Shown here: positions 28,592 to 43,472 of the stretch, piece by piece
How positions within the stretch are numbered: position 1 is the first letter of the stretch
How the letters are laid out: each line of letters begins with the position of its first letter
Assembly: GCF_000425365.1 (NCBI RefSeq)
Contig: NZ_AUDH01000003.1
Coordinates: 62,001 to 126,000 of the forward strand
Direction of reading: 5' to 3'
From: Rubritepida flocculans DSM 14296
Lineage (GTDB): Bacteria > Pseudomonadota > Alphaproteobacteria > Acetobacterales > Acetobacteraceae
DNA length: 64,000 nt
The notes under the pieces: generated by a model
Seen by the model: the letters and a program-made list of their open reading frames with translations, nothing else
The model's database searches: none
What the model was told of the DNA's origin: nothing
Position numbers and translations under genes: made by a program

Positions 28592-28664
28592 GGGCCGGTA
28601 GCTCAGTTGGTAGAGCACGTGACTTTTAATCATGTGGTCGCGGGTTCGAGTCCCGCCCGGCTCA
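28592..28664 (+). tRNA. tRNA-Lys, anticodon UUU
   Basis: A full cloverleaf is visible. Acceptor GGGCCGG (28592-28598) pairs with CCGGCTC (28657-28663) with one G-U, and the discriminator A is at 28664. The D arm lies in TAGCTCAGTTGGTAGAGCA. Anticodon stem CGTGA/TCATG surrounds the loop CTTTTAA with TTT at 28625-28627. The T stem is GCGGG/CCCGC around TTCGAGT. The 3' CCA is not encoded. The last three bases are shared with the stop codon of the opposite-strand DUF3141 gene. Confidence 0.97.
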
Positions 28665-30962
28665 TTCCCTCCGCGTCGCCGGCGCTGCGGCCTCCTCCGC
28701 GCCGCTGAGCCCCAGCACCGCCCGCTGCCGCGCCAGCATCGCCCGCGCGTGCTCGCCCAGCTCCTCCTCCGGACCCGCCACGCCCTCCACGGCGGCCATG
28801 GCCCGGCGGCGATCCTCCTCCTCCGGCAGCAGCAGCGGCAGACTTTCGAGCGCGAGCGCGGGCTGCAGCGCGACGATCAGCGTCTGCTCGCGGATCATCT
28901 CCTGACGCCGCTCGGGGCTGAGGGAGCGGAAGGGCTCCTCCGTCGTCAGCAGCGCGCTGGAGCGTTCGAGGCGCGAGCGCCGCACCGCCCCGCGCGCCTC
29001 GGCGAGCAGCACCAGCATGCGCACCACCGCCTCCGCATAGCCGCCGAGCGGCGCGAGGCGTTCCGCCCGGCCCGCCGCCTCCTCCAGCAGCGCCGCCTCC
29101 TGCCCCTCTGCGGCGGCGCGGGCCGGGGCGCGCGCGCCGATCCCGAGCGCGGCGAGGCCGCCATAGACGGCGTGGAAGGCGATCTCCGCCACCGCCTCCT
29201 GCGCCTCGCGCCAGCGGGTGATGCCCTCCTCCACCGCATCGGCGAAGACCCGCTCCCAGGCGAGGAAGGGGTTGTCGGCCGCGGCGGGGGCGCGGTGCCG
29301 GCGCGCGATCTCCGCCGCCGGCGCCACCCAGGCGAGGAAGGGGTTGCGGTCGGAAACCAGGGTGCGGCGCAGCCGCAGCGGATGAAGCTGCCGGCGCAGC
29401 TCCGCCCCCGCCTCGGTGGCCGTCGCGCGCACGAGCGGACTCACGGCCGTGTCGTAGATCGCCTGGCCGAGTTCGGAAATCTGCGCGACGGCGGGGAAGG
29501 CGTGATTGTCCGCCTCGCCGGCGAGCGCGCGGATGTCGCTCATCTTCCGCTCGACGAGCTCGACGGCGTAGGGCGCGTTGCCGCCGCCCTCCTCGGTGAT
29601 CACCATCTCGTAGAGGCCCGGGGCCACCGCCTCGATCATCTCCAGCGTGGTCGCGATCTCGCTGTGCTCCTTCCGCGCCACCTTGCCCGAGACGAAGATG
29701 CCGAGGTGCCCGATCTCCTCGTGCAGCAGATAGACGATGGTCTGCCCGCGCGCGCGGATTTCGCGCTCGTCGCCGTACACGTCCGCGATCCAGCGCAGCG
29801 CCTGGCCGGGCGGGGTGATGTTGTCGCCCGCCGAGGCGAAGACGATGACGGGCGAGCGCACGGCGCGCATGTCGAAGCGCCCCTGTTCGGGGGCGGCGAG
29901 CGCGCCCTGCGCGAAGCGGTCGCCAATAAAGAGGTTGTCCACGATCCAGCCGATCTCGTCGCGGTTCATCAGGAAGAACCCGCCCCACCAGCGCTCGAAC
30001 TCCAGGAAGCGCGGCCCCTCGTGGTCGGCCTTCTCGTAGAGGTCCCAGTATTTGCGGAACCAGGTGGTGGCGGGCGAGAGGGCCTCGAAGTTCAGCACGA
30101 GGTTCGCCCCGTCGAAGCGCCCGTTGCCGAGATCGGCCAGCAGCGCCGCGGGCCAGCCGCCGCCGGCGAGCCCGCCCAGGTAGCGCATCGGGTTGCGGCC
30201 CTTCTCGCCCGCCCAGTAGGAGAGCGGCGCGCCGTTCAGCACCAGCGGGCCGACGAGATCGGGCTCGGCGCTGCCCAGCATCATCACCGCCCAGCCGCCC
30301 TGGCAGTTCCCGATCACCACGGGCTTGGGCGCATCCGGGTGGCGGTCGCGCACCAGGCGCAGGAAGGCGCCCTCGGCGGCGGTGATGTCGAGGATGGTCT
30401 GCCCCGGCTCCGGGTCGCGGAAGAAGATGACGAAATAGACCGGGTGGCCGCGCCGCAGCGCCACGCCCACCTGGCTGTCGGACTTGAAGCCGCCGATGCC
30501 CGCGCCATGGCCCGCCCGCGGGTCCACGATCACGAAGGGGCGCAGCGCGGGATCGGTGGCGGGCATGCCCGCGCCGGGGAGGATGCGCACCAGCGCGTAG
30601 TTCACCGGGCGCGGCAGGCTGCGGCCGTCGAGCAGCGTCTCGTAGTCGAAGACGAGCACGGGCGGGCAGCCCGCCTCCTCGTGCGCGATGAAGATGTTGC
30701 CCGCCTGCCGCATGATGTCGAGGAAGAGCGCGCCGCGCTGCGCCGCATCCAGCGCGTATTCCGCCGCCGCGGCGAACAGCGCCGGCGGCGGGGGCGGCGG
30801 GGGCAGCGATTCCGGCAGCCGCGGCAGGTTGGCGGCGAGGCCGATGGCCCGCGCGGCGGCGAGGTCCATCACGCCCTGCGCCTGCGCGGCCATGCGGCGC
30901 CAGGCCTGCTGGCCGCGCTCCGCCAGCTCGAGGAAGGCCGAGGCGGGATGCGGGTCGGTCAT
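28662..30962 (-). CDS. DUF3141 protein, PHA synthase-like alpha/beta hydrolase
   Basis: A 766-residue protein of the DUF3141 family. The N-terminal half (about 60-430) resembles PHA synthase: the lipase-box variant G-N-C-Q-G-G puts a Cys at residue 220 as nucleophile, Asp380 lies in SAGDNITPP, and His419 lies in EEIGHLG. The C-terminal 330 residues are helical and specific to the family. It is the last gene of a fabI-ackA-DUF3141 operon, overlapping ackA by 4 bases (ATGA). In other proteobacteria the family lies next to phosphotransacetylase, acetate kinase and FabI genes, suggesting a role in PHB or acyl-CoA turnover, but the reaction is not known to me. The stop codon lies inside the tRNA-Lys gene on the other strand. 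Confidence 0.85.
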   Translation of the reverse strand: MTDPHPASAFLELAERGQQAWRRMAAQAQGVMDLAAARAIGLAANLPRLPESLPPPPPPPALFAAAAEYALDAAQRGALFLDIMRQAGNIFIAHEEAGCPPVLVFDYETLLDGRSLPRPVNYALVRILPGAGMPATDPALRPFVIVDPRAGHGAGIGGFKSDSQVGVALRRGHPVYFVIFFRDPEPGQTILDITAAEGAFLRLVRDRHPDAPKPVVIGNCQGGWAVMMLGSAEPDLVGPLVLNGAPLSYWAGEKGRNPMRYLGGLAGGGWPAALLADLGNGRFDGANLVLNFEALSPATTWFRKYWDLYEKADHEGPRFLEFERWWGGFFLMNRDEIGWIVDNLFIGDRFAQGALAAPEQGRFDMRAVRSPVIVFASAGDNITPPGQALRWIADVYGDEREIRARGQTIVYLLHEEIGHLGIFVSGKVARKEHSEIATTLEMIEAVAPGLYEMVITEEGGGNAPYAVELVERKMSDIRALAGEADNHAFPAVAQISELGQAIYDTAVSPLVRATATEAGAELRRQLHPLRLRRTLVSDRNPFLAWVAPAAEIARRHRAPAAADNPFLAWERVFADAVEEGITRWREAQEAVAEIAFHAVYGGLAALGIGARAPARAAAEGQEAALLEEAAGRAERLAPLGGYAEAVVRMLVLLAEARGAVRRSRLERSSALLTTEEPFRSLSPERRQEMIREQTLIVALQPALALESLPLLLPEEEDRRRAMAAVEGVAGPEEELGEHARAMLARQRAVLGLSGAEEAAAPATRRE

Positions 30963-32161
30963 GGCAGCGTCTCCGTCGCCGGGGCGATCAGGGCAAGGCA
31001 ATGCGCGGCGATCATGCCTTCCTCGTCGGTGGGGCGGACCAGCACGCGCACGGGGCCGGCGCCGATCTCCGGGGCGTTGCGCGCATTCGCCGCGGGATCG
31101 AGCGCGATGCCGAGGAAGCCCAGCCCCTCGCAGATGCGCGCGCGCGCGCCCGCCGCGTTCTCGCCGATGCCGGCGGTGAAGACCAGCGCGTCGAGCCCGC
31201 CCATGGTCGTGGCCAGCGCCGCGATCTCGCGCCGCACGCGATAGGCGAAATGGCCGAGCGCGCGCTCGGCCGCCTCGCCGCCCGCCGCCTCGATCTCGCG
31301 CACGTCCTGCGAGACGCCGGAGAGGCCCTTGAGCCCGCTCTCGTGGTAGAGCAGCCGCGTCACCTCCGCGGTCGTCATGCCCATGGCGTCCAGCAGATGC
31401 AGCACCACGCCGGGGTCGAGCTGGCCGCAGCGCGTGCCCATGGGCACGCCGTCGAGCGCGGTGAATCCCATGCTCGTCGCCACGCTCCGCCCCCCGGCGA
31501 TGGCGCACAGCGAGGCCCCATTGCCGAGATGCGCCACGACGAGGCGCGCCCCGCCCAGCGCCGCATCCTCGCGCGCGAGGCGGCGCGCGATGGATTCGTA
31601 GGAGAGGCCGTGGAAGCCGTAGCGCCGGATGCCCTGGCGGAAGAAGCGGTCGGGCAGGGCGAAGCGCTCCGCCACCTCGGGCTGGGTGCGGTGGAAGGCG
31701 GTGTCGAAGCAGGCGATCTGCGGCACGCCCGGGAAATGCCGCGCCGCCGCCTCGATGCCCGCGAGGTTGTGCGGCTGATGCAGCGGCGCGAGCGGGATGA
31801 GGGCGCGCAGCCGCTCCATCACCGGCGGCGAAAGGCGCACGGGGGCCGCGAACTCCGCCCCGCCATGGACGACGCGGTGGCCGATGGCCCGCGGCGGGGC
31901 CGCGCCCAGCACCTCCGGCAGCCAGGCGATGATGGTGGCGAGCGCCTCCTCATGGGTGGCGGGCGCGCCGCCGCCCTCCCAGCGCCGCTCGGCCAGCGCC
32001 TCGCCGCCGGGCCCGCGCGCGCGGAAGCGCGGCGCGGCGCCCAAGCCCTCCACCTGCCCCGCGCAGAGCGGCGCGGGCGGCCCGTCTGCGGCCGCATAGG
32101 CGGCGAATTTCAGCGAGGAGGAGCCGGCGTTGAGGACGAGGATCGAGGGCGGCATGCTCAT
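30959..32161 (-). CDS. ackA: Acetate kinase family protein
   Basis: Acetyl phosphate + ADP <-> acetate + ATP; 400 residues. LVLNAGSSSLKFA at the N terminus, GHRVVHGG, the substrate-pocket FDTAFH, GNGASLCAI and FTAGIGENA are the ASKHA-fold signatures. The ATG at 32161 overlaps the fabI stop (ATGA). Butyrate or propionate kinase activity is possible, but the motifs fit acetate kinase best. No phosphotransacetylase gene lies beside it. Confidence 0.93.
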   Translation of the reverse strand: MSMPPSILVLNAGSSSLKFAAYAAADGPPAPLCAGQVEGLGAAPRFRARGPGGEALAERRWEGGGAPATHEEALATIIAWLPEVLGAAPPRAIGHRVVHGGAEFAAPVRLSPPVMERLRALIPLAPLHQPHNLAGIEAAARHFPGVPQIACFDTAFHRTQPEVAERFALPDRFFRQGIRRYGFHGLSYESIARRLAREDAALGGARLVVAHLGNGASLCAIAGGRSVATSMGFTALDGVPMGTRCGQLDPGVVLHLLDAMGMTTAEVTRLLYHESGLKGLSGVSQDVREIEAAGGEAAERALGHFAYRVRREIAALATTMGGLDALVFTAGIGENAAGARARICEGLGFLGIALDPAANARNAPEIGAGPVRVLVRPTDEEGMIAAHCLALIAPATETLP

Positions 32162-32979
32162 GCCCGGATGTGCAGGCCGCCATCCACGTGGATGACCTCG
32201 CCCGTCATGCCCGAGGCCGCGCCGCTGACCAGGAAGGCGACGACGCGCCCCACCTCCGCGATGTCCACGAGGCGCTGCTGCGGGGCGCGGCGTTCGGCCA
32301 TCTCCAGCAGCGTGTCGAACCGCGCGATGCCCGAGGCCGCGCGGGTGGGCATCGGCCCCGGCGAGACGGCGAAGACGCGGATGCCCCGCGGCCCCAGCTC
32401 GGCCGCCGCATAGCGCACCGCGGCCTCGAGCGCGGCCTTCACCGGGCCCATGAGGCTGTAGTGGTCCACCACCCGCTCGGCGCCGTGATAGCTCATGGTG
32501 ACGAGCGCGCCGCCCTCGCCCATCAGCGGCTCCGCGAGATGCGCCATGCGCAGGAAGGACCAGCAGGAGACGTGCATGGCCTGGGCGAAGCCCTCGGCCG
32601 AGCAGTCCACCACGCGGCCGTGCAGGTCGGCGCGCGGGGCGAAGGCGATGGAGTGGATCACGAAGTCGAGCCGCCCCCATTCCTGCCCGAGCCGCGCGAA
32701 GACCGCCTCCATCGCGCCGGGCTGTTCCACGTCCAGCGGCATGGCGAGGCGCGCGCCGAGCCTCTCGGCCAGCGGGCGCACATGCGGCTCCGCCTTCTCG
32801 TTGCGCCAGGTGAGGGCGAGCTCGGCCCCGCAGGCGCGCAGCACGGCGGCGCAGCCATAGGCGATGCTGCGCGCATCGGCGATGCCCACGACCAGGCCGC
32901 GCCGGCCCCGCAGCGCCTCGCCCAGCCGCGTCTGCGCGGACCAGAGGCGGGGCAGGAGGTCGCTCGGCATCTCGTCCAT
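32158..32979 (-). CDS. fabI: Enoyl-ACP reductase FabI-type SDR
   Basis: NADH-dependent enoyl reductase fold, 273 residues from the ATG at 32979, which has a GGAG ahead of it. The nucleotide site VVGIADARSIAYG matches the FabI pattern. The catalytic Tyr/Lys pair is in DHYSLMGPVKAALE (Y-x6-K), preceded by MSYHGAERVV as in FabI. A GPMPTRAASGI loop is the substrate/triclosan-binding region. The setting in an ackA-DUF3141 operon suggests a specialised or second copy; whether the main FabI lies elsewhere cannot be seen. An alternative start at 33003 exists. Confidence 0.87.
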   Translation of the reverse strand: MDEMPSDLLPRLWSAQTRLGEALRGRRGLVVGIADARSIAYGCAAVLRACGAELALTWRNEKAEPHVRPLAERLGARLAMPLDVEQPGAMEAVFARLGQEWGRLDFVIHSIAFAPRADLHGRVVDCSAEGFAQAMHVSCWSFLRMAHLAEPLMGEGGALVTMSYHGAERVVDHYSLMGPVKAALEAAVRYAAAELGPRGIRVFAVSPGPMPTRAASGIARFDTLLEMAERRAPQQRLVDIAEVGRVVAFLVSGAASGMTGEVIHVDGGLHIRA

Positions 32980-32993
32980 CCGGGGCTCCGTGC

Positions 32994-33015
32994 GGTGCAG
33001 CATGCTTCCTGCACC
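32994..33015. repeat. 7-bp inverted repeat between crtF and fabI
   Basis: GGTGCAG (32994-33000) pairs with CTGCACC (33009-33015) around an 8-base loop. It lies between the crtF stop and the chosen fabI start on the same strand, so it could end the crtF transcript. No T-run follows. Confidence 0.35.
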
Positions 33016-33070: not shown

Positions 33071-34216
33071 TCAGGCCCTGGCGAGCAGCAGGCTGGTCAG
33101 CATCGGCGTGCGGGTGGGCAGGGGGCGGCTGTCGCGGAAGCCGGCCTCGCGCAGCATCGCCTGCAGCTCCTCCATCCGGCGCGGTCGGCCGCGCCCCATG
33201 GCGAGCAGGTAGAAGCCGAAATAGGCCTCGCCCACCGGCTCCGCGCCCGGCGTGCCGGACATGGGCTCGGCCAGCAGCAGCACCCCCCCGGGCGGCAGGG
33301 CGGCATGGACCCGGCGCAGCAGGGCGCGCGCCTCGGCGTCGTCGTGGTCGTGCACCACCCGCACGAGGGAGATCGCGTCCGCCCCGCGCGGAAGCCCCTC
33401 GCTGTGGAAGCTGCCGCCATGCACCTCGGCGCGCGCGGCGAGCCCCTCGCGGGCGAAGCGCGCGCGGGCGCGCTCGGCCACCGCCGGCAGGTCGAAGAGC
33501 ACCAGGCCGAGCGACGGGTGGCGCTTGCCGGCGGCGCAGAGGAAGGCGCCCTCGCCGCCGCCCACATCCATCAGCCGGCGATGGCGCGAGAGGTCGTAGG
33601 CGGCGAGGATTTCGGCCGCGATCATGGGCTGGGAGGCGGCCATGAGCGCGCTGTACTCCCCCACCGCGCCGGCCTCCAGCGCCTCCGCCTCCGCATGGCC
33701 CGCATAGGCCCAGTAGCGGGCGAGCCGCGTGCCGCCGCGCGGGTTGCGCAGCAGCGCCACGGGGGCGGCGAGGTCGGCGTAGAACAGCGCGTGGTGCTCC
33801 ACCATCGCGGCCACGCCCGGGTTGTCCACCAGCGCCGCGCCGAGCGCGCCGAGGCCGTAGCGCCCGCCGCTGCGCGGCGCGACGAGCTTCAGCGCCGCCG
33901 CCGCCTCCATCAGCCGGATCGTCGCGTCGGTGGAGAGGGAAAGCCGCTGCGCGAGCCAGGGAACCGGCCGCGGCCCCTCGCGCAGCGCCTCGAAGACGCC
34001 CAGCCGCACCGCGGCGGCGAGGATCTGCGAATAGACGAAGCCCGCATTGAGGTCGAACAGCGCCCGCGCCCGGCGCCGCGCGAGCGGCCGGGTGAGCGGG
34101 AAACGCGCCGCCCAGTCGCGGAAGCGCGGATCGGCCACCATCCGGTCGCGGAAGGCGAGGAAACGCTCCTTCAGCGAGGGGGCGGGCGGCGGGACATCGG
34201 CCACGCGGTCGCTCAT
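33071..34216 (-). CDS. crtF: Demethylspheroidene O-methyltransferase (hydroxyneurosporene methyltransferase)
   Basis: S-adenosylmethionine-dependent enzyme of 381 residues that methylates the tertiary 1-hydroxyl made by CrtC in the spheroidene/spirilloxanthin pathway. An N-terminal winged-helix dimerisation part (FDLNAGFVYSQILAAAVRLGVFEAL) is followed by the SAM motif LMDVGGGEGAFL, LFDLPAV, and the catalytic region SLVRVVHDHDD with His. It diverges from crtC over a gap holding a perfect PpsR/CrtJ palindrome, which supports assignment to photosynthesis rather than to generic small-molecule O-methylation. Confidence 0.88.
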   Translation of the reverse strand: MSDRVADVPPPAPSLKERFLAFRDRMVADPRFRDWAARFPLTRPLARRRARALFDLNAGFVYSQILAAAVRLGVFEALREGPRPVPWLAQRLSLSTDATIRLMEAAAALKLVAPRSGGRYGLGALGAALVDNPGVAAMVEHHALFYADLAAPVALLRNPRGGTRLARYWAYAGHAEAEALEAGAVGEYSALMAASQPMIAAEILAAYDLSRHRRLMDVGGGEGAFLCAAGKRHPSLGLVLFDLPAVAERARARFAREGLAARAEVHGGSFHSEGLPRGADAISLVRVVHDHDDAEARALLRRVHAALPPGGVLLLAEPMSGTPGAEPVGEAYFGFYLLAMGRGRPRRMEELQAMLREAGFRDSRPLPTRTPMLTSLLLARA

Positions 34217-34392: not shown

Positions 34393-35322
34393 ATGAGGGG
34401 CTGGGAGTTCGACAGGCCGGTGCCGGAGCGCGGCTATGCCTGGTGGTATGTGGACGCGCTCTCGGAGGACGGAACGCAGGGCATCACGCTGATCGCCTTC
34501 ATCGGCACGGTGTTCTCGCCCTGGTATGCCCTGGCCCGTCGCGGCGGCGGGGGCGATCCGCACAACCACTGCTGCCTGAACGTCGCGCTCTACGGCCGGC
34601 CGCGCCGCTGGGCGATGACCGACCGCCGCCGCGGCGCCCTCGCCCGCGGCGCGGATTTCCTGCAGATCGGCCCATCGCGCCTCGACTGGGACGGCGAGGC
34701 GCTGACCATCCGCATCCAGGAGGTGACGGCGCCCATCCCCTCGCGCCTCTCGGGCGTGGTGCGGCTGCGGCCGCGCGCGCTCAGCACGCGCCGGTTCGAG
34801 CTCGACCGCGCGGGCCGGCACCTGTGGCACCCCATCGCCGCGCGCGCGCGCGTCGAGGTGGCGCTGGAGAACCCGGCGCTGCGCTGGTCGGGCCCCGCCT
34901 ATTTCGACTGGAACGCGGGGGCGGCGCCGCTCGAGCAGGATTTCCGGGAGTGGGACTGGTGCCGCGCGCCGATGGCCGACCGCACCGCCATCCTCTACCA
35001 CGCCGAGCGGCGCGACGGATCGAGCCAGAGCCTCGCGCTGCGCGTGGACGAGGACGGCGCGGTGGGCGCCTTCCCGCCGCCGCCGCCGGTGAGCCTGCCG
35101 CGCACGCTGTGGCGCATCCGCCGCCCCACCCGTTCGGAGGACGGCCATGCGCGGGTGCTGCGCACGCTGGAGGACACGCCCTTCTACGCGCGCTCCGTCA
35201 TCGAGACCCGGCTGCTGGGCGAGCGCGCGACGGCGGTGCACGAGAGCCTCGACCTCGACCGCTTCGCCCACCCCTCCATGTACGCGATGCTGCCCTTCAA
35301 GGTGCCGCGGGCGCTAGGCTGA
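34393..35322 (+). CDS. crtC: Carotenoid 1,2-hydratase (hydroxyneurosporene synthase)
   Basis: Adds water across the C-1,2 double bond of acyclic carotenoids, the first step towards spheroidene or spirilloxanthin; 309 residues. Family hallmarks are YAWWYVDALSEDGTQGITLIAFIGTVFSPWY, HNHCCLNVALYG, and the SGPAYFDWNAG...EQDFREWDW block. ATG 34393 is the likely start; an in-frame GTG/ATG further up would add about 40 low-complexity residues through the operator. Its last 9 bases overlap the end of the convergent ATP-grasp gene. Confidence 0.93.
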   Translation: MRGWEFDRPVPERGYAWWYVDALSEDGTQGITLIAFIGTVFSPWYALARRGGGGDPHNHCCLNVALYGRPRRWAMTDRRRGALARGADFLQIGPSRLDWDGEALTIRIQEVTAPIPSRLSGVVRLRPRALSTRRFELDRAGRHLWHPIAARARVEVALENPALRWSGPAYFDWNAGAAPLEQDFREWDWCRAPMADRTAILYHAERRDGSSQSLALRVDEDGAVGAFPPPPPVSLPRTLWRIRRPTRSEDGHARVLRTLEDTPFYARSVIETRLLGERATAVHESLDLDRFAHPSMYAMLPFKVPRALG

Positions 35323-36453
35323 GGGCGGGCGCTCGCCCTCGTACCAGTCGAGGTCGAGGGTCGCGACCTCGCCGAAGGGCCGGCGCCGCTGCAGCGCGAG
35401 GCGCAGGATGGGCCAGGTGGTCCAGGTCATGGTCAGGAAGGGCAGCGGGTCGCGCCAGGACCAGGTGACGTCGCGCGTGCCGAGCAGGGTGCGCAGCGTG
35501 GCGAGATAGCCGCGTCGGAACATCACGCCCGAGAGCGCGGTGAGCACCGAGTAGAACTGCTGCAGCCGCGCCTCCTCGCGCGGAGCCGCCGGGATCCCCT
35601 CCAGGATGGCGGGCGCGATGGCCTCGGTGCGCAGGAAATGCACGCCGCTCGTCGCGCGCGGATTGCACTCGATGCCCCAGGGTTCGCCCGCCTCGTCCAC
35701 CATCAGGTCGAAGGAGATGAAGCCGGTATGGCCCGAGGCGGCGACGAAGCGCGCGATCCACTCCTCGATGCGCGGCGCGTCCGTCACCCGCTCGAAGACG
35801 GTGGCGACGGAGCCTGCGAACATCACGCCCCGGTAGATGGCGTTGGCGACCAGCCGGCCCTCCTGCGCGATCCCGCAGGAGGAATGCACGCGCCCCGGCA
35901 CGAAGGCCTGCACCACATGCGGGGCGGGCTCGGCGGGCAGGGGCGCGCCGCGCCGGACAAGGCGGAAGCCCCGCCCGCCGCAGGAATGCACGGGCTTCAC
36001 CACCACATCCTGCCGCGCCGCGAGGGCGGCCGCCTCCTCCGTGCCGAGCGGATGGGTTTCCGGCACGCGCACCCCGTAGGCCGCGCAGCGCCGGGCGAAG
36101 GCGAGCTTGTCGTGCAGCGGCAGCAGGCGCTCGGGCGGGGGCGCGAACAGGCGCACCCCGGGGGGCAGGCGGCCGTGCAGCGCCGCCACATGCATCGTCT
36201 CCTCCGAGACGGGAAGCACGAGCCGCGCCTCCTCCTCGCGCACGACGCGCAGGAGATCATCGAGATAGGCCTGCTTCCCCGCGCTCGGCGGCCGCACCGC
36301 GACGGATTTCGCCACATGGCGCGAGGCCCCGGTGAGGTGCCGCGCGAAGGGCTCGGCCACCACCACGCGCCAGCCCGCGGCCGAGAAGCTGCGCGCGATG
36401 TCGAGCGCCTTGGGCAGCCGCCCGAGCGTAAGAAGGACGGTGGGCGCGCTCAT
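35314..36453 (-). CDS. ATP-grasp domain protein of unknown substrate
   Basis: ATP-grasp enzyme of 379 residues with a carbamoyl-phosphate synthase/carboxylate-amine ligase layout. A Rossmann-like pre-domain (MSAPTVLLTLGRLPKALDIARSF) precedes the ATP-binding strands VVVKPVHSCGGRGF and APHVVQAFVPG, and the Mg-binding pair in GFISFDLMVDE...WGIECNPRATSG. Such enzymes activate a carboxylate as acyl phosphate and join it to an amine, thiol or hydroxyl. The start overlaps the P450 stop by 4 bases (ATGA), so P450 and ligase are made together. It lies between crtC and crtD, so a carotenoid or bacteriochlorophyll-related substrate is an inference only. Confidence 0.8.
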   Translation of the reverse strand: MSAPTVLLTLGRLPKALDIARSFSAAGWRVVVAEPFARHLTGASRHVAKSVAVRPPSAGKQAYLDDLLRVVREEEARLVLPVSEETMHVAALHGRLPPGVRLFAPPPERLLPLHDKLAFARRCAAYGVRVPETHPLGTEEAAALAARQDVVVKPVHSCGGRGFRLVRRGAPLPAEPAPHVVQAFVPGRVHSSCGIAQEGRLVANAIYRGVMFAGSVATVFERVTDAPRIEEWIARFVAASGHTGFISFDLMVDEAGEPWGIECNPRATSGVHFLRTEAIAPAILEGIPAAPREEARLQQFYSVLTALSGVMFRRGYLATLRTLLGTRDVTWSWRDPLPFLTMTWTTWPILRLALQRRRPFGEVATLDLDWYEGERPPSA

Positions 36454-37850
36454 CCGCCCGCGCGCGAGACCATGACCATCACCTGCTCGGTGGGCCTCGT
36501 GGTGAGGCGCGCGGCGGGGCGAACGCGGCCGGGCTCCAGCACGCGGAAGTCGAAGCGGCGGAACAGCCGCGCGATGAGCAGGATGGCCTCGGTGGTGGCG
36601 AAGGCGGCGCCGGCGCAGACGCGCGGGCCCAGGCCGAAGGGGATGTAGGCGCCGGGCGTGATCTCGCCCTCGCGCTCGGGCAGGAAGCGGTCGGCGTCGA
36701 AGAGGTGCGGATCGCGCCAGTAGCGCTGGTGGCGGTGCAGCACCCAGGGCGCGACCATGACCAGCGCGCCGCGCTTCACCTTGAAGTCGCCGATCGTGGT
36801 CGCCTCCAGCGCCACGCGCGGCAGGAAGGTGATGGGCGGATAGAGGCGCAGCGTCTCGCGGAAGAGGTTGCGCGCGAAAACGAGGCGCCTGGTGTGCTCG
36901 AACTCCACCGGGCCGTCGCCGCACACCTCGCGCAGCTCCGCGCGCAGCCGCGCCACCAGGGCGGGGCGGGTGGCGAGGAGGAAGAACACCCAGGTCAGCG
37001 CGCTCGCGCTCGTCTCGTGCCCGGCGAGGAAGAGCACGCCGAGCTGGTCGATCAGCTCCTCGCGCGAGAAGGCCTCGCCCGTCTGCGGATCGCGCGCGGC
37101 GATGACGGCGCTCGCGATGTCGTCGAAGCGCCCGGCCTGCGGGCCGGCATGGGTGTCGAGCAGCTCGGCGAGGTGATGGCGGATGGTGCGGCAGGCTTCC
37201 AGCACTTCGGGCCGCTGCGGGGCGTTGCGCCAGGCCTCGTCGAAGATGAGGCGGCGGATTTCCACCTGCGCCACGCTGCGCTCGAAGAGGGTGAAGGCGT
37301 CGAACACGTCCCGCGCCGCCTGGTGGCGCAGGCTGGTGGAGAAGACGGTGCGGCAGATGATGTCGGCCGTCAGATGGCTCATCGTGAGGTCGAGCGAGAC
37401 GGGGCGGCGCCGGGCGGCCTCCTCCTCCAGCGCCTCCTCCGCCGCCTCGCAGCCCGCGACCATGGCGGGGAAGGCGTTGGTCACGCGCATCATGGTCAGC
37501 GAGGGGTCGATCATCCGGCGCTGCCGCTTCCAGGTGGCGCCGGAGGAGACGAAGATCGAATCGCCGATCAGCGGATCGAGCGCCTCCACCATCAGGTCGC
37601 TCTTGGGGAAGATGCCCTCCGGGTCGGAGAGCACGCGCCGCACCTGGTCGGGGCGGTTCACGATGAGGATCTGCCGGCGCGACCAGCCCAGATGCCCCAC
37701 CTCGACCCGATAGGCGGCGGCCGGCAGCAGGGAGAGCAGGTCACCATCGCCCCGCAGCATCACCCGCAGCAGCGAGACGAGGGCGGAGAGCGAGGTGGGC
37801 TTGGGCGGGGTGAAGGTCTCGGGCCGCGGCGGCGGCGCCATCATGTTCAT
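36450..37850 (-). CDS. Cytochrome P450 in the photosynthesis gene cluster
   Basis: Complete P450, 466 residues from the MNMM start (a Met 10 codons earlier is the alternative). I-helix oxygen groove FLAGHETSASALTW, K-helix FRETLRLYPP (E-x-x-R), and heme loop FGLGPRVCAGAAFA with the thiolate Cys near residue 412. No membrane anchor. The R-V-C-A-G heme loop, the CYP102/CYP175-like I helix and the length suggest fatty-acid or carotenoid hydroxylases rather than the camphor type; this is impression, not proof. It is operonic with the ATP-grasp gene. A partial PpsR operator lies just upstream. A redox partner is not in the window. Confidence 0.87.
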   Translation of the reverse strand: MNMMAPPPRPETFTPPKPTSLSALVSLLRVMLRGDGDLLSLLPAAAYRVEVGHLGWSRRQILIVNRPDQVRRVLSDPEGIFPKSDLMVEALDPLIGDSIFVSSGATWKRQRRMIDPSLTMMRVTNAFPAMVAGCEAAEEALEEEAARRRPVSLDLTMSHLTADIICRTVFSTSLRHQAARDVFDAFTLFERSVAQVEIRRLIFDEAWRNAPQRPEVLEACRTIRHHLAELLDTHAGPQAGRFDDIASAVIAARDPQTGEAFSREELIDQLGVLFLAGHETSASALTWVFFLLATRPALVARLRAELREVCGDGPVEFEHTRRLVFARNLFRETLRLYPPITFLPRVALEATTIGDFKVKRGALVMVAPWVLHRHQRYWRDPHLFDADRFLPEREGEITPGAYIPFGLGPRVCAGAAFATTEAILLIARLFRRFDFRVLEPGRVRPAARLTTRPTEQVMVMVSRAGG

Positions 37851-37902
37851 GGGGCTTACCCGTCGAGAAGGCGGGTGCATTCGGCGGCGTGACGGCGTAG
37901 TG

Positions 37903-37920
37903 TGTCAAGCAAGATTGTCG
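37903..37920. promoter_or_regulatory. Degenerate PpsR-like site between P450 and a membrane protein gene
   Basis: TGTCAAGCAAGATTGTCG shares its first ten bases, TGTCAAGCAA, with the strict operator upstream of bchC, but the second half is TCG instead of ACA. On the minus strand it supplies a TTGACA (37908-37903) facing the P450 gene. This makes the later P450 start at 37850 more likely, because the Met at 37880 would fall within the core promoter. Confidence 0.4.
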
Positions 37921-37943
37921 CCCCCGCTGTCCGAGGCCCGCGC

Positions 37944-38705
37944 ATGGACCTGAGCAAGCTGCTCGACCTCGCCGAACTGGACCTGTTCCACACGCTGGTC
38001 CTGCTGCACATCTTCACGGGGGCCACGGGGGCCATCGCCTTCTGGGTGCCCGTGATCGGCCGCAAGGGCGGGGCGAACCACAAGCTCTGGGGCCTGGTGT
38101 TCAACACCTGCCTGCTCGTCACCGGGCTGCTGGCGCTGGGGATGAGCCTGCTGACGCTGCGCGACCCCTTCGGCACGCACCCGCACCTCGTCGGTCGCTT
38201 CGAGGCGGAGTTCATCCGCGGCCTCTTCGGCTGGATGATGCTGCACAACGCCATCCTGACCGTGAACCTCGTCTGGTACGGCTGGCTGTGCGTGCGCAAC
38301 CGCCGCGACCATGCGGCGAACCGCACGCCGCTGAACCGCGCCCTGCAATGGCTTCTGCTCGCGGCCGCCATCGCCTGCGCGGCGGATGGCTGGCGGATCG
38401 GCCAGCCGCTGATGATCGGCATCGCCGTGGTGGGCGTGGCGACGGTGGCGACGAACTGGTGGTTCCTCTGGCGCGACAATCCCGGGCCGCTCGACTGGCT
38501 GAAGGAGCACATCAAGGCGCTCGTCGGCGCCGGGATCAGCGTCTACACGGCCTTCTTCGCCTTCGGCTCGGTGCGGATCATGCCGGTGCTGGCCCTGCAC
38601 CCGGTCACCTGGGCGATCCCGCTCGTCACCGGCATCGCGCTGATCGTCTGGCACCAGCGCAAGGTGACGCTCGGGCTGCGCGCGCGGCGCGCGGCCGCGG
38701 CCTGA
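37944..38705 (+). CDS. Multi-pass membrane protein of unknown function
   Basis: Hydrophobic protein of 253 residues with about seven predicted helices (for example FHTLVLLHIFTGATGAIAFWV, LWGLVFNTCLLVTGLLALGM, ALQWLLLAAAIACAADGW, WAIPLVTGIALIVW). The first helix has a LLHIFTGATG stretch with a His that recalls DUF2306-type membrane proteins, but I cannot assign it. It ends 7 bases before crtD on the same strand, so it is probably co-expressed with the carotenoid desaturase. ATG 37944 is chosen over a GTG at 37902, which would lie in the operator-like site. Confidence 0.7.
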   Translation: MDLSKLLDLAELDLFHTLVLLHIFTGATGAIAFWVPVIGRKGGANHKLWGLVFNTCLLVTGLLALGMSLLTLRDPFGTHPHLVGRFEAEFIRGLFGWMMLHNAILTVNLVWYGWLCVRNRRDHAANRTPLNRALQWLLLAAAIACAADGWRIGQPLMIGIAVVGVATVATNWWFLWRDNPGPLDWLKEHIKALVGAGISVYTAFFAFGSVRIMPVLALHPVTWAIPLVTGIALIVWHQRKVTLGLRARRAAAA

Positions 38706-38712
38706 GGGCGAT

Positions 38713-40293
38713 ATGCGCGTCGCCGTCATCGGCGCGGGGGTGGGCGGGCTCGCCGCGGCGGCCGACCTCGCCCGGCGCGGCTGCGAGGTGACGGTGTTCG
38801 AGGCCGCCGCCGCCCCAGGCGGAAAGATGCGGCAGATCGAGGTGGCGGGGCGCGGCGTGGATGCGGGGCCCACCGTCTTCACCATGCGCTGGATCTTCGA
38901 GGCGCTCTTCGCCGATGCGGGGCGGCGGCTCGAGGACCACCTGGACATGCTGCCCTCGGAGCTTCTGGCGCGGCATGCCTGGCGGGCGGGCGGGCGGCTC
39001 GACCTCTTCGCGGACATCGGGCGCTCGATGGAGGCGATCGCCGCCTTCGCCTCGCCGGAGGACGCGCGCGGCTATCGCGAGTTCTGCGCGCGCAGCGCCG
39101 CGATCTACCGCACGCTGGCCGGGCCCTTCATCGCCTCCGAGCGGCCCTCGCCGCTGGAACTCGTGCGGCGCGTGGGGGCGGGGAATCTCGGACAGTTCTG
39201 GCGCACCGCGCCGCTGCGCAGCCTCTGGGGCGCGCTCGGCGCGCATTTCCGCGACGTGCGGCTGCGCCAGCTCTTCGCGCGCTACGCCACCTATGTGGGC
39301 GCCTCGCCCTTCCTCGCGCCGGCCACGCTGATGCTCATCGCGCATGTGGAGCAGGACGGGGTGTGGCAGGTGCGCGGGGGCATGGCGGCGGTCGCGCGGG
39401 CGCTGCATGGGCTGGCCGAGGCGCAGGGCGCGCGGTTCCGTTTCGGGGCGCGCGTCGAGGAGGTCCTCGTCGATGGCGGGCGCGCGGCCGGGGTGCGGCT
39501 CGCGACGGGCGAGGTGCAGCGGGCGGAGGCCGTGCTGTTCAACGGCGACGCCTCGGCGCTCGGGCAGGGGCTGCTCGGCGCGGGCGCGCGGCGGGCCGCG
39601 CCGGAGACGCCGCGCGCGCGCCGCTCGCTCTCCGCCATCACCTGGTGCGTGAATGCGCCGACCGAGGGCTTCGCGCTGGCGCACCACAATGTCTTCTTCG
39701 CGGAGGACTACGCCGAGGAGTTCGACGCGATCTTCCGCCGCCGGAGCCTGTGCGCCGCGCCCACCGTCTATGTCTGCGCGCAGGATCGCGGGCCCGCCGC
39801 CGAGGCGCCCGCGCCGGGTGGGGCGGAGCGGCTTCTGGTTCTCGTGAACGCGCCCGCGGAGGGCGATGCCCAGGCCCTCGACCTCGCGCGGCACGAGGCG
39901 GAGGCCTTCGCGCTGCTGGCGGCCTGCGGGCTGCATGTCGCGCGCGCGCCCGGGCGCATGGCGGCCACCACGCCCAAGGGTTTCCACGCGCTGTTTCCCG
40001 GCACGGGCGGGGCGCTCTACGGCCGCGCGAACCATGGGATGACGGGCAGCTTCGCGCGGCCCGGCGCCGCCTCGCGCCTGCCCGGGCTCTACCTCGCCGG
40101 AGGATCGGTGCATCCGGGCGCGGGCGTGCCGATGGCCGCGATGTCGGGCCGGCTGGCCGCCGCGCGGCTGCTGGAGGACCGCGCGGGCGAGCGGCGCGCA
40201 ATTGTCGGGCTGGGGCTTTCGCCAGCGGCCGCCGGCGTCACTGCCGATACGTCCCGCCCTCCGGCCGGTCGCATCAGACCCGCGCCGACGTGA
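38713..40293 (+). CDS. crtD: Carotenoid 3,4-desaturase (methoxyneurosporene dehydrogenase, CrtD-type)
   Basis: FAD-dependent desaturase of the CrtI/CrtD family, 526 residues, expected to introduce the C-3,4 double bonds after CrtC/CrtF action. Dinucleotide site AVIGAGVGGLAAAADLARRG. The C-terminal FAD signature LPGLYLAGGSVHPGAGVPMAAMSG is typical of CrtD. The substrate-side GPTVFTMRWIFEALF replaces the GPTIITAPYLL of CrtI, supporting CrtD over phytoene desaturase. The last 35 or so residues extend past the usual end and overlap the 3' end of crtI by 20 bases. Confidence 0.87.
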   Translation: MRVAVIGAGVGGLAAAADLARRGCEVTVFEAAAAPGGKMRQIEVAGRGVDAGPTVFTMRWIFEALFADAGRRLEDHLDMLPSELLARHAWRAGGRLDLFADIGRSMEAIAAFASPEDARGYREFCARSAAIYRTLAGPFIASERPSPLELVRRVGAGNLGQFWRTAPLRSLWGALGAHFRDVRLRQLFARYATYVGASPFLAPATLMLIAHVEQDGVWQVRGGMAAVARALHGLAEAQGARFRFGARVEEVLVDGGRAAGVRLATGEVQRAEAVLFNGDASALGQGLLGAGARRAAPETPRARRSLSAITWCVNAPTEGFALAHHNVFFAEDYAEEFDAIFRRRSLCAAPTVYVCAQDRGPAAEAPAPGGAERLLVLVNAPAEGDAQALDLARHEAEAFALLAACGLHVARAPGRMAATTPKGFHALFPGTGGALYGRANHGMTGSFARPGAASRLPGLYLAGGSVHPGAGVPMAAMSGRLAAARLLEDRAGERRAIVGLGLSPAAAGVTADTSRPPAGRIRPAPT

Positions 40294-41791
40294 AGGACTC
40301 CGCGGGCGGCAGCACCTGATCCAGCACGCGGGCGGAGGCGATCACGCCCGGCACGCCCGCGCCCGGATGGGTGCCCGCGCCGACGAGGAAGAGGTTGCGC
40401 AGCTCCTCGCTCATGTTGTGCGGGCGGAACCAGGCCGACTGGAAGAGCTGCGGCTCCATGGCGAAGGCCGCGCCCTGCCAGGCGTTCAGCCTCTCGCGGA
40501 AGTCGAGCGGCGTCAGCAGACGCTGCGTGACGATGTGCCGGCCGAGGCCGGGCAGCACCGTCTCCTCCAGGCGCTGCTGGATGCGTGCGCGATAGGGCTC
40601 GGCCATGGCCCGCCAGTCGATGCCGCCGCCCAGATGCGGCACCGGCGAGAGCACGTAGAAGGCGTCGCAGCCCGGCGGCGCGAGGGAGGGGTCATTGGCC
40701 GTCGGGCGATGGAGGTAGAGCGACATGTCCTCGGCGAGGCGCTTGCGCTGGAAGATGTCCCGCAGCAGCCCTTCGTAGCGCGGGCCGAGCACCATGGTGT
40801 GGTGGTACACCTCGTCGAAGCGCCGGTCGGTTCCGAAATACCAGACGAACAGGCCCATGGAATACTTCGCGCGCGCGAGCTTCGCATCCGTCCAGCGCCG
40901 GCGAGGCCGTGCGCCGAGAAGCCTCGCATAGGTCCAGGCCGGATCGGCGTTGGAGACGACGACATCGGCGCGCAGCACCTCGCCAGAGGCCAGGCGCACG
41001 CCGGCGGCGGCGCCGTTCTCGGCCAGGATTTCCGTCACCTCCGCGTCGCAGCGCAGGCGCCCGCCCTTGGCTTCGATCAGGCGCACCAGCGCGCGCACCA
41101 CGGCCCCCGTGCCGCCCATGGCGTAATGGACGCCGTGCAGCTTCTCCAGATGCGCGATGAGGCAGTAGTAGGCCGTGGTGTTCAGCGGGTTCCCGCCGAT
41201 CAGCAGCGGGTGGAAGCTGAAGGCGACGCGCAGCTTCGGGTTGCGGAAGTTCGAGCAGACCTTGCCGAAGACGGAGCGGTATCCCTGCAGGCGGATCATG
41301 TCCGGCACCGCGGCCAGCATGGCGCCGAGACGGTGGAAGGGCCGGTCGGCGAGCTGCGCGAAGGCGACGTCGTAGATCGCCTCCGAGTCGCGGATGTGGC
41401 GCTCGAAGCCCTCGACATCCTCGGGCGCGATGCGCCGCACCTCCTCGCGCATGGCGCTGACGTCGGCGCTGGCGCGGAACTCCGTGCCGTCGTCGAAGCG
41501 GATCACGTAGAAGGGGTCGATGGCGCGCAGGTCGAGGTCATCGGCCATGCGGCGGCCGTGCAGCGCCCACAGCTCCTCGAGCAGATAGGGCGCGGTGATG
41601 ATGGTGGGGCCGGCGTCGAAGGTGAAACCGTCCTGGCGGAAGGTGTAGGCGCGGCCGCCCGGCGCATCGAGCTTCTCCAGCACCGTGACGCGATAGCCGC
41701 GCGCGAGGAGCCGCACGGCCGCGGCGAGGCCGCCGAAGCCCGAGCCGATGACGATGGCATCGGGGCGCGGGGGGGCGGAGATCACGTTCAT
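40274..41791 (-). CDS. crtI: Phytoene desaturase
   Basis: Converts phytoene to neurosporene/lycopene by stepwise desaturation; 505 residues, the normal length. FAD site IVIGSGFGGLAAAVRLLARG, FTFDAGPTIITAPYLLEELW, and the C-terminal NLFLVGAGTHPGAGVPGVIASA are diagnostic. Unusually for this gene, crtB (phytoene synthase), its common partner, is not adjacent or anywhere in the window. The gene converges on crtD with a 20-base overlap. Confidence 0.92.
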   Translation of the reverse strand: MNVISAPPRPDAIVIGSGFGGLAAAVRLLARGYRVTVLEKLDAPGGRAYTFRQDGFTFDAGPTIITAPYLLEELWALHGRRMADDLDLRAIDPFYVIRFDDGTEFRASADVSAMREEVRRIAPEDVEGFERHIRDSEAIYDVAFAQLADRPFHRLGAMLAAVPDMIRLQGYRSVFGKVCSNFRNPKLRVAFSFHPLLIGGNPLNTTAYYCLIAHLEKLHGVHYAMGGTGAVVRALVRLIEAKGGRLRCDAEVTEILAENGAAAGVRLASGEVLRADVVVSNADPAWTYARLLGARPRRRWTDAKLARAKYSMGLFVWYFGTDRRFDEVYHHTMVLGPRYEGLLRDIFQRKRLAEDMSLYLHRPTANDPSLAPPGCDAFYVLSPVPHLGGGIDWRAMAEPYRARIQQRLEETVLPGLGRHIVTQRLLTPLDFRERLNAWQGAAFAMEPQLFQSAWFRPHNMSEELRNLFLVGAGTHPGAGVPGVIASARVLDQVLPPAESFTSARV

Positions 41792-41870
41792 GCGTGTGGG
41801 ATCCTCGGCGGTTCCCGGCTCCCGCATCCTCGCGCATCGCGCTGCGGAATCCAAAGGGAAACCTCGGCCC

Positions 41871-42308
41871 TCACGCGAGCTGCAAGGCGATCCACGCGAG
41901 CACGACATAGCGTCCCGTCTTGGCGAGCGCCACGAGCGGCACGAAGCGCCAAAAGGGCTCGCGCATCACGCCCGCAACCACGGTCAGCGGGTCTCCGATG
42001 ATCGGCGCCCAGCTCGCCAGCAGCGACCATCGGCCCCAGCGCGCATACCAGGCCTGGGCGCGGTCGAGCGCCGCCTCGCCCACGGGAAACCAGCGGCGAT
42101 GGCGGAAGCGCTCGACCATGCGCCCGAGCGCGTAGTTCACGCAGGAGCCGAGCGTGTTGCCGAGGCTCGCCACCAGCACCAGCGCCCAGGCCGGATGGTC
42201 GGAGGCGAGCAGCAGCCCGACCAGCACCGGCTCCGACTGCATGGGCAGCAGCGAGGCGGCGCCGAAGGCGACGAGGAACAGCGAGGCGTAGGTGGCGAGC
42301 GCGCTCAT
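41871..42308 (-). CDS. YqaA family inner membrane protein (DedA-like)
   Basis: Small membrane protein of 145 residues, YqaA branch of the SNARE-associated/DedA superfamily, with helices around MSALATYASLFLVAFGAASL, PAWALVLVASLGNTLGSCVNY (the conserved G-N-x-x-G motif) and a final WIALQLA helix. RWSLLASWAPIIGDPLTVVAGVMR is the re-entrant loop typical of the family. The family is linked to lipid flipping and envelope homeostasis; function here is unknown. It lies between the puf operon terminator and crtI on the same strand. Confidence 0.82.
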   Translation of the reverse strand: MSALATYASLFLVAFGAASLLPMQSEPVLVGLLLASDHPAWALVLVASLGNTLGSCVNYALGRMVERFRHRRWFPVGEAALDRAQAWYARWGRWSLLASWAPIIGDPLTVVAGVMREPFWRFVPLVALAKTGRYVVLAWIALQLA

Positions 42309-42392: not shown

Positions 42393-43472
42393 TCAGTTGC
42401 GCGCCGGCTGCGACGCGGCCTCCGCGCGGCGCGGCGGCGGGTTCAGCTCCGGATAGTCGCTGAGCATGGGCGCGCCGTAGAGCGGGCGGTACACGCCCTG
42501 GTGGCAGGTGGTGCAGTTCACCTTCAGCGTGTCGCCGAGCGGGCCGAGGCGATGCGGCGGGAAGCGCTCGCGCAGCGGCTCGATGTAGTCGTTGTTGATG
42601 GCCCGCACCATGCGGATGCCGTGCCAGGCGGTGACGCGCTGCGGCGTGCTCGTCTCCCACGAGGCGAAGGAGCGGCTGTTGTGGCAGAAGGTGCAGTTGA
42701 CGCCGAGCGAGGTGGACATGTGCATCATCAGCCCGTAGATCCACTCGGTCTGGATGATGCTTGCGTTGTTGTTCCGCTCGCGCGCCGTCTCCGACTGGTG
42801 ACGGATGGGCTCGTCCCGCAGCAGATAGGGCGTGAAGGGATCGGAGGGCAGCGTGGCGTAGCCGGTGGCCGCCACGGGCCGGTTCTGCTCGCCCGCCACC
42901 TGCCACATGCGCGAGGCGGGCGCGTTGGATGGCGCCTGCGACCACACCGCGGCCGGCACGGCCTGGCCGCGATGGCAGGTGTAGCAGGTGACGCCCGTGT
43001 TCTGCACATGGTTGGCGAAGCTGCTGTTGATGGTGTGGACCATCTGCAGCATCCGCCGCGCGACATGCTTGGTGTAGATGTCCTCGGCGGCGAAATTGCC
43101 GGGGACGTGGCAGCCGTTGCAGCTCTCGGCCGGGTTCTCGTTGGGGTAGATCCACTCGGACATGGCCTGCATGATCCGGTTGAACTGCTCCACCGAGAGG
43201 TGGCCGAGCACCTGCACGTTCTCGAACACCTCCGAGGCGCGCGGCCCTTCGGGGTCGGCGGGCTCGATGGCGGCGGGGACGATGTTGCGCGCCTGGATGC
43301 GGTCCAGGTTGCGGTTGTTGTACACCACCTCCATCGCCGTTCCGCGGAAGCCCATCTGGACCTCCGTGGTGCCGGGGCGCTCGAAGGTCACCACCAGGAA
43401 GGCGGCGGTTGCGATGGCCGCCACGCCCGTCCAGAAGAGGAAACCGAAGGTCCTGTAGAATTCGGGCTTCAT
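42393..43472 (-). CDS. pufC: Photosynthetic reaction centre tetraheme cytochrome c subunit
   Basis: Periplasmic electron donor to the special pair, 359 residues. Four C-x2-C-H heme sites are at residues 118-122, 163-167, 260-264 and 320-324, arranged as two pairs. Met candidates for sixth ligands lie in helices ahead of each (for example RIMQAMSEW, GLMMHM). The N terminus has one hydrophobic segment (FLFWTGVAAIATAAFLVVTF) without a lipobox Cys, so it is probably anchored by an uncleaved helix rather than by lipid. Last gene of the puf operon, 13 bases after pufM. Confidence 0.96.
   Translation of the reverse strand: MKPEFYRTFGFLFWTGVAAIATAAFLVVTFERPGTTEVQMGFRGTAMEVVYNNRNLDRIQARNIVPAAIEPADPEGPRASEVFENVQVLGHLSVEQFNRIMQAMSEWIYPNENPAESCNGCHVPGNFAAEDIYTKHVARRMLQMVHTINSSFANHVQNTGVTCYTCHRGQAVPAAVWSQAPSNAPASRMWQVAGEQNRPVAATGYATLPSDPFTPYLLRDEPIRHQSETARERNNNASIIQTEWIYGLMMHMSTSLGVNCTFCHNSRSFASWETSTPQRVTAWHGIRMVRAINNDYIEPLRERFPPHRLGPLGDTLKVNCTTCHQGVYRPLYGAPMLSDYPELNPPPRRAEAASQPARN

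Follow-up and report, generated by a model that had tools for sequence, protein, structure and literature searches.

We analysed a stretch of 64,000 nucleotides from the alphaproteobacterium Rubritepida flocculans DSM 14296 (contig NZ_AUDH01000003.1, positions 62,001 to 126,000; called the window below), in which genes for a cytochrome P450 and an ATP-grasp ligase lie among carotenoid and photosynthesis genes. Together with the gene of a membrane protein, which we call hyp267, they make up what we consider, with a probability of roughly 0.85, to be a carotenoid-tailoring cassette. The cassette genes are intact, coupled, inherited together, linked to carotenoid genes and found almost only in phototrophs; the substrate, the site of modification, the product and the order of the steps are what we infer. 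The cassette is real, widespread and, as far as could be searched, undescribed. No description of the P450/ATP-grasp pair was found among the matches listed for the accessible text of the open-licence literature, and the accessible text on Sediminicoccus KRV36 names no P450.

Two overlapping genes in a carotenoid and photosynthesis cluster

The P450 gene (36450..37850, minus strand, 466 amino acids) and the ligase gene (35314..36453, minus strand, 379 amino acids, intact) overlap by four bases: ATGA, read from the sequence of the minus strand at 36453-36450, holds the stop codon of the former and the start codon of the latter. An earlier note on this DNA, made from the sequence alone, had described this overlap and placed the pair at 35314-37850, and both are exact. 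It had also seen the end of the ligase gene overlap crtC. The ligase stop codon occupies 35316-35314 and the plus-strand crtC gene ends at 35322, so that the two convergent genes share nine bases tail to tail. The surroundings of the pair, with crtF, crtC, a crtD paralog (crtD2), crtI, pufC, pufLM, bchZ, bchY and bchC, agree with its placement inside a carotenoid/photosynthesis cluster.

We searched each of 249 genomes of the family for the ligase, the P450 and PF00124 (pufLM), taking as orthologs ATP-grasp matches above 385 bits and P450 matches above 665 bits. The same 21 genomes contain strong orthologs of both, and the two genes are adjacent in every one of them. The four-base overlap is kept in 13 of these orthologous pairs and an overlap of any length in 17, with gaps of 4 to 28 bases in the remaining 4 (the start codons in these counts were chosen by script). 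The overlap is conserved beyond chance, in line with the earlier view of the P450 and the ligase as a coupled pair. A scan of named genomes for the ligase confirmed 183 loci, and the best 80 of these, from 78 genomes, are the named loci referred to below. They include 18 of the 21 pair loci of the family sample, which means that the two sets cannot be counted as independent. In 78 of the 80 the P450 and ligase genes are neighbours, the other two loci being cut at a contig end, and in 77 of the 78 they share a strand.

It could still be that the ligase gene has no functional tie to the P450 gene and that they overlap through compact gene packing alone. A sister clade of P450s without an ATP-grasp enzyme would fit this explanation, as would one named locus (L124) in which the P450 and ATP-grasp genes are convergent. 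However, the adjacency is complete both in the 21 family genomes and in the 78 named loci in which the P450 side is present, and it extends over records whose labels include, among others, Acetobacteraceae, Sphingomonadales and Hyphomicrobiales, which leaves mere packing hardly any chance of being the right account.

Occurrence of the pair in phototrophic bacteria

Matches to pufLM above the cut-off were found in 20 of the 21 pair genomes and in 60 of the 228 others (Fisher p 3.5e-10, with kinship not corrected for); co-occurrence with puf genes, by which the earlier note had proposed to check the pair, is strongly positive. The sole pair genome without pufLM in this sample, G120, has a completeness of 80% and no bchZ either. 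Two genomes of the same genus as the window genome (G175 and G248) have neither the pair nor puf genes.

The named loci reach Acetobacteraceae/Roseomonadaceae, Novosphingobium, Sphingomonas, Rhabdaerophilum, metagenome-assembled genomes (MAGs) of Beijerinckiaceae and Bosea, and MAGs labelled Gammaproteobacteria or Proteobacteria; cultured carriers include Roseococcus, Falsiroseomonas, Paracraurococcus and Novosphingobium. The window genome groups with Roseococcus: its nearest named relative is a Roseococcus MAG (ATP-grasp 91% identical), and the ligases of the type strains R. suduntuyensis and R. thiosulfatophilus, which are classed in the same genus as the window genome, are 70% and 68% identical. 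Among the 78 genomes behind the named loci, 72 contain pufLM. The six that do not are all MAGs (L082, L099, L103, L126, L130 and L135); L082 itself shows pufC, and the genome of L130 is G120. The pair genomes lacking pufLM look like incomplete bins, and the restriction of the pair to phototrophs holds, although not strictly. A class-wide sample of 385 genomes, searched at E 1e-30, gave two distant ATP-grasp relatives besides the window genome, which is too sparse for scoring co-occurrence.

Association with carotenoid genes

Of the 80 named loci, 74 have carotenoid (crt) genes within the visible stretch, while among the 44 loci with full flanks 19 show neither puf nor bch genes. The earlier proposal of a link to the photosynthesis cluster thus stands as regards co-occurrence with puf genes, whereas the physical link is more to crt than to puf.

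The cassette also appears to have travelled with a carotenoid gene. Relative to the window, the proteins of Rhabdaerophilum and a Beijerinckiaceae MAG are 81-82% (P450), 69-70% (ATP-grasp), 78% (hyp267) and 80% (CrtI) identical, and the corresponding values for R. thiosulfatophilus are 82%, 68%, 76% and 81%. For pufLM and crtC, identities are 72-74% and 48-50% in the former two genomes versus 91-92% and 78% in R. thiosulfatophilus, and bchZ of the former two is likewise far more distant from the window. Their pufLM, bchZ and crtC genes lie about 90 kilobases from the cassette, on the same contig in Rhabdaerophilum and apparently also in the MAG. Because the cassette identities are high and those of pufLM, bchZ and crtC are low, the cassette appears, judged by sequence identity, to have moved with crtI into both lineages without the photosynthesis cluster.

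In Novosphingobium fuchskuhlense the cassette adjoins genes for lycopene cyclase, CrtI and phytoene synthase, and in Novosphingobium AAP83 it is followed by a crtC-type gene instead. Such crtC-type genes were present in 22 of 24 chosen non-Acetobacteraceae genomes, none of them over the curated cut-off; the two genomes without one are MAGs. At the N. fuchskuhlense locus (L118, 11186-12891), the two genes next after that of the ATP-grasp enzyme encode a cytochrome b561-type protein and an MsrP-like protein, which could be redox partners; members of the b561-type family occur in 10 loci.

In four genomes, all of which have bchZ, the gene next to the end of crtC, in the same orientation, encodes a sister P450 (56-57% identity). 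One of these genomes (G207) has no pufLM match but carries bchZ on the contig of the P450, and is counted as a phototroph with missing pieces. The family-sample search gave no ATP-grasp match in the four genomes. Hence, the P450 step need not involve the ligase.

Predicted features of the three proteins

The P450 is canonical: it matches Pfam PF00067 with an E value of 5e-68 (230 bits, cut-off 22.8) and contains the AGxxT, ExxR and heme-cysteine motifs of that family. Alignment of 24 homologs revealed the invariant residues A276 G277 H278 E279 T280, E332, R335 and C412, which we take to be the I-helix site of oxygen activation (A276-T280), the ExxR motif (E332 and R335) and the heme loop (C412). 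With these motifs intact, the enzyme looks active. The top-scoring solved structures for the window P450 were CYP97 plant carotene hydroxylases, enzymes that act on ring carotenoids. However, two unrelated P450s of the window genome, used as paralog controls, rank CYP97 second, so the likeness is not specific and we dropped it as a sign of a carotenoid substrate.

The ligase matches Pfam ATP-grasp_3 (E 1e-11, 45.6 bits, cut-off 23.2), and K153, D249, E262, N264 and R266 are invariant in 19 aligned homologs; these presumably include the lysine and, as Glu/Asn, the metal site of ATP-grasp enzymes. The structural model, with a mean confidence (pLDDT) of 87, resembles PurK best (VIA-align Z 23.1, root mean square deviation 3.7 over 312 residues), with further likenesses to GAR synthetase, biotin carboxylase, PylC and an amino acid ligase. 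The protein therefore combines the profile match, the fold and the lysine and metal-site residues of the superfamily, and it looks active from its sequence. Its PurK-like fold supports carboxylate activation and points to no particular partner. A match to NF005315 (PRK06849) extends over residues 5-370, including the C-terminal extension, at 225.8 bits against a cut-off of 406, which places the ligase outside this equivalog; the family itself is annotated solely as hypothetical protein.

The third cassette member, hyp267 (37902..38705, plus strand), is divergent from the P450 gene. It lies in this position in 70 of the 80 named loci, the other 10 ending at a contig edge before it, and at one of the four sister-P450 loci (L055). 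The protein is weakly DUF2306-like: the best of four homologs reached 21.9 bits, short of the cut-off of 31.6, and Pfam gave no DUF2306 match in the window protein itself. Its model is a bundle of long helices (pLDDT 88) for which the fold search returned no solved structure below E 0.1. An alignment of 21 sequences shows histidines 20, 77 and 187 to be invariant; a role in binding heme or a metal is speculation.

The region between the P450 gene and hyp267 contains the palindrome TGT-N12-ACA, presumably the PpsR-type consensus, in 23 of 70 loci, compared with a mean of 1.6 and a maximum of 5 in 200 base shuffles. Control spacings of 11, 13, 14 and 8 were present in 1, 0, 8 and 5 loci, respectively.

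Evidence against a carotenoid-tailoring role

Several observations weigh against our reading, among them the unspecific likeness to CYP97. As 60 of the 80 pufLM-bearing genomes of the family lack the pair, it is tied to phototrophy but not needed for it. Six of the 80 named loci have no visible crt gene; five of these are truncated on the side of the P450, and the locus of a Bosea MAG (L106) has none despite 7.7 kilobases beyond hyp267. Because the P450 and ATP-grasp genes face each other in L124, translational coupling is not essential. As 15 of the 23 loci with the palindrome carry the label of Sphingomonadales or of a genus within that order, the number of independent occurrences is much smaller than 23, and the exact palindrome is absent between the P450 gene and hyp267 in the window and likewise in the two Roseococcus type strains. 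Finally, the neighbours of distant ATP-grasp relatives (G181, G555 and G570) are not carotenoid genes; near them are genes for a FabH-type synthase, as at L057 and L139, or for a capsule-type protein, as at L138, which indicates that the wider ATP-grasp family is not carotenoid-specific. The cluster at L139 (4481-10743) also encodes an epimerase, a Rieske protein and a protein with the metallo-beta-lactamase fold, and is one more uncharacterised setting in which these ligases are used.

The absence of the pair from many phototrophs, together with a chemistry that is inferred only, would be compatible with a non-carotenoid substrate such as a quinone, a hopanoid or the bacteriochlorophyll tail, the proximity to crt genes then being a matter of cluster history. 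We give this explanation little credence. A shared history with the photosynthesis cluster does not readily account for crtI staying with the cassette in its apparent transfer to Hyphomicrobiales, for the lycopene cyclase, crtI and phytoene synthase genes beside it in N. fuchskuhlense, for the sister P450 that follows crtC, or for the many full-flank loci with puf and bch genes out of view.

Possible reactions of the cassette

We propose that, in aerobic phototrophs, the substrates of the cassette are acyclic C40 carotenoids from the spirilloxanthin route. The P450 would oxidise the carotenoid, as suggested by the recurrent crt neighbours and by the sister P450 directly after crtC, most likely at a terminal methyl group and on to the carboxylic acid. 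The ligase would then use ATP to activate the carboxylate, in the form of an acyl phosphate, and would couple it to an amine or hydroxyl, a reaction class to which the fold and the intact residues point. As a speculation, hyp267 may anchor the P450 or supply electrons. For the full scheme, a carotenoid acid made by the P450 and ligated by the ATP-grasp enzyme, we see a chance that comes close to even and stays below it. The earlier note had proposed this acid-and-ligation model, which we rate as the likeliest single reading.

A C40 carotenoid acid has a precedent in a phototroph: gemmatoxanthin of Gemmatimonas phototrophica is a C40 16-oic acid with one spirilloxanthin-type methoxy end, in which a terminal methyl group has become a carboxylate (PMC8342508). 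In the accessible text of that paper the oxidising enzymes are not established; the C-19 oxidation is assigned to none, and the authors propose CruH-like oxidases and not a P450 for the carboxyl group, which tells against the scheme proposed here (PMC8342508).

The same gene evidence would fit a different division of labour, in which the P450 hydroxylates the carotenoid and the ligase activates a small carboxylic acid, for example an amino acid, and esterifies the hydroxyl, the carotenoid being the nucleophile. A single hydroxylation is the simplest outcome of a P450 reaction, the Foldseek matches include L-amino acid ligase and PylC, and ATP-grasp enzymes that make esters exist in the graspetide synthetases. 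On the other hand, nothing points to the acid substrate, and fold comparison cannot separate donor from acceptor. We regard this alternative as somewhat unlikely.

Within the scheme of a carotenoid acid, the P450-made C40 acid could be joined to an amino compound in an amide bond by the ligase. This would give nitrogen-bearing carotenoids, as charged or strongly polar pigments of the antenna or membrane, a product that we consider unlikely and put forward tentatively. We know of no natural carotenoid amide. A search for such amides in the accessible text of the open-licence literature gave one match, on nanoencapsulation.

The C30 pigment of Roseococcus

R. thiosulfatophilus, which carries the pair (L064), is reported in the accessible text of one paper to contain a C30 carotenedioate and its diglucosyl ester (PMC12654162), and the pair could make or tailor this pigment. 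The resemblance to the C30 diapolycopenedioic acid glucosyl ester route of Methylobacterium extorquens and Roseococcus lies in the use of carotenoid acids and a conjugating step. In that route, as far as its accessible description goes, conjugation is the work of a glycosyltransferase and an acyltransferase (PMC10448405), unlike the ligase of the pair, and the window genome has a separate locus of this kind. This C30-type locus, on contig C29 (L148, 6999-12126), contains two crtI-family genes, a gene for an HpnB/CruG-like family 2 glycosyltransferase and an acyltransferase-like open reading frame (ORF) with a weak Pfam match.

We searched nine pair carriers for the C30 tandem with a threshold of E 1e-60. 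It is present in R. thiosulfatophilus and R. suduntuyensis (85 and 84% identity for the first gene) and in four other acetobacterial carriers, so that six of the nine have it and the pair is not confined to genomes with the tandem. At this threshold it is absent from two Novosphingobium genomes and Rhabdaerophilum, which have one 33% match each; this match adjoins the cassette in N. fuchskuhlense and Rhabdaerophilum and lies elsewhere in AAP83. As the C30 pigment has a locus of its own and three carriers show no tandem at this threshold, we set aside the C30 dioate as the product; the chance that the pair makes or tailors it is very small, and a C40 carotenoid is the likelier substrate.

Other genes of the region

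Of the spirilloxanthin genes beside the pair, crtD and crtI pass curated cut-offs, crtC scores below its cut-off, and crtF is assigned by Pfam family and position. The crtC gene for carotenoid 1,2-hydratase (34393..35322, plus strand), convergent with the ligase gene, matches NF045922 with an E value of 5e-91 and 305 bits, below the cut-off of 400. Beside it lies a crtF-like O-methyltransferase gene (33071..34216, minus strand; Pfam Methyltransf_2), and next to crtF a minus-strand run (28662-33003) encodes a DUF3141 protein, acetate kinase and a FabI-type enoyl reductase.

Beyond hyp267 lies crtD2 (38713..40293, plus strand), which encodes a 1-hydroxycarotenoid 3,4-desaturase (NF045637, 661 bits, cut-off 580) and belongs to a clade, with 30 rows, that is separate from the crtD next to crtC. 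We considered crtD2 as an obligatory cassette member and rejected this, as it is absent beside the cassette in Dankookia, two Paracraurococcus, Paeniroseomonas and three Hyphomicrobiales loci; it is a usual but not constant neighbour. In R. thiosulfatophilus and R. suduntuyensis a second crtD lies between crtF and crtC, where the window has none and crtD2 is its only copy.

The crtI gene for phytoene desaturase (40274..41908, minus strand) scores 604 bits with TIGR02734, over the cut-off; its real start is probably further inside the ORF. In the window genome, four crtI-family genes exceed the cut-off, namely crtI, crtD2 and both of those on contig C29. A small VTT-domain (DedA-like) membrane protein (41871..42308, minus strand; PF09335) is encoded between crtI and pufC; it is present in 24 of the 80 named loci and adjoins the cassette in three Hyphomicrobiales loci. 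After pufC (42393-43472) follow pufL and pufM, as two PF00124 matches, and bchZ, bchY and bchC lie between 45990 and 50856.

Significance for carotenoid biosynthesis

The pair shares its cluster and neighbours, and probably its acyclic C40 substrates, with the spirilloxanthin pathway of CrtI, CrtC, CrtD and CrtF and the ketolase CrtA. Unlike the pair locus, this pathway includes neither a P450 nor an ATP-grasp ligase in the accessible text of a 2023 review of purple-bacterial carotenoids, which describes CrtA and CruO and states that CrtA is not a P450 (PMC10604819); to this extent, the earlier statement that neither gene belongs to the known pathway is upheld. The same text lists the genes for rhodopinal, glycosylation and esterification as still unknown (PMC10604819). 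The presence of the cassette in cultured species thus provides named candidate genes where the accessible parts of this review and of the gemmatoxanthin paper leave enzyme gaps. If the cassette does make a conjugated C40 carotenoid acid, this would be a new type of pigment in photosynthetic membranes.

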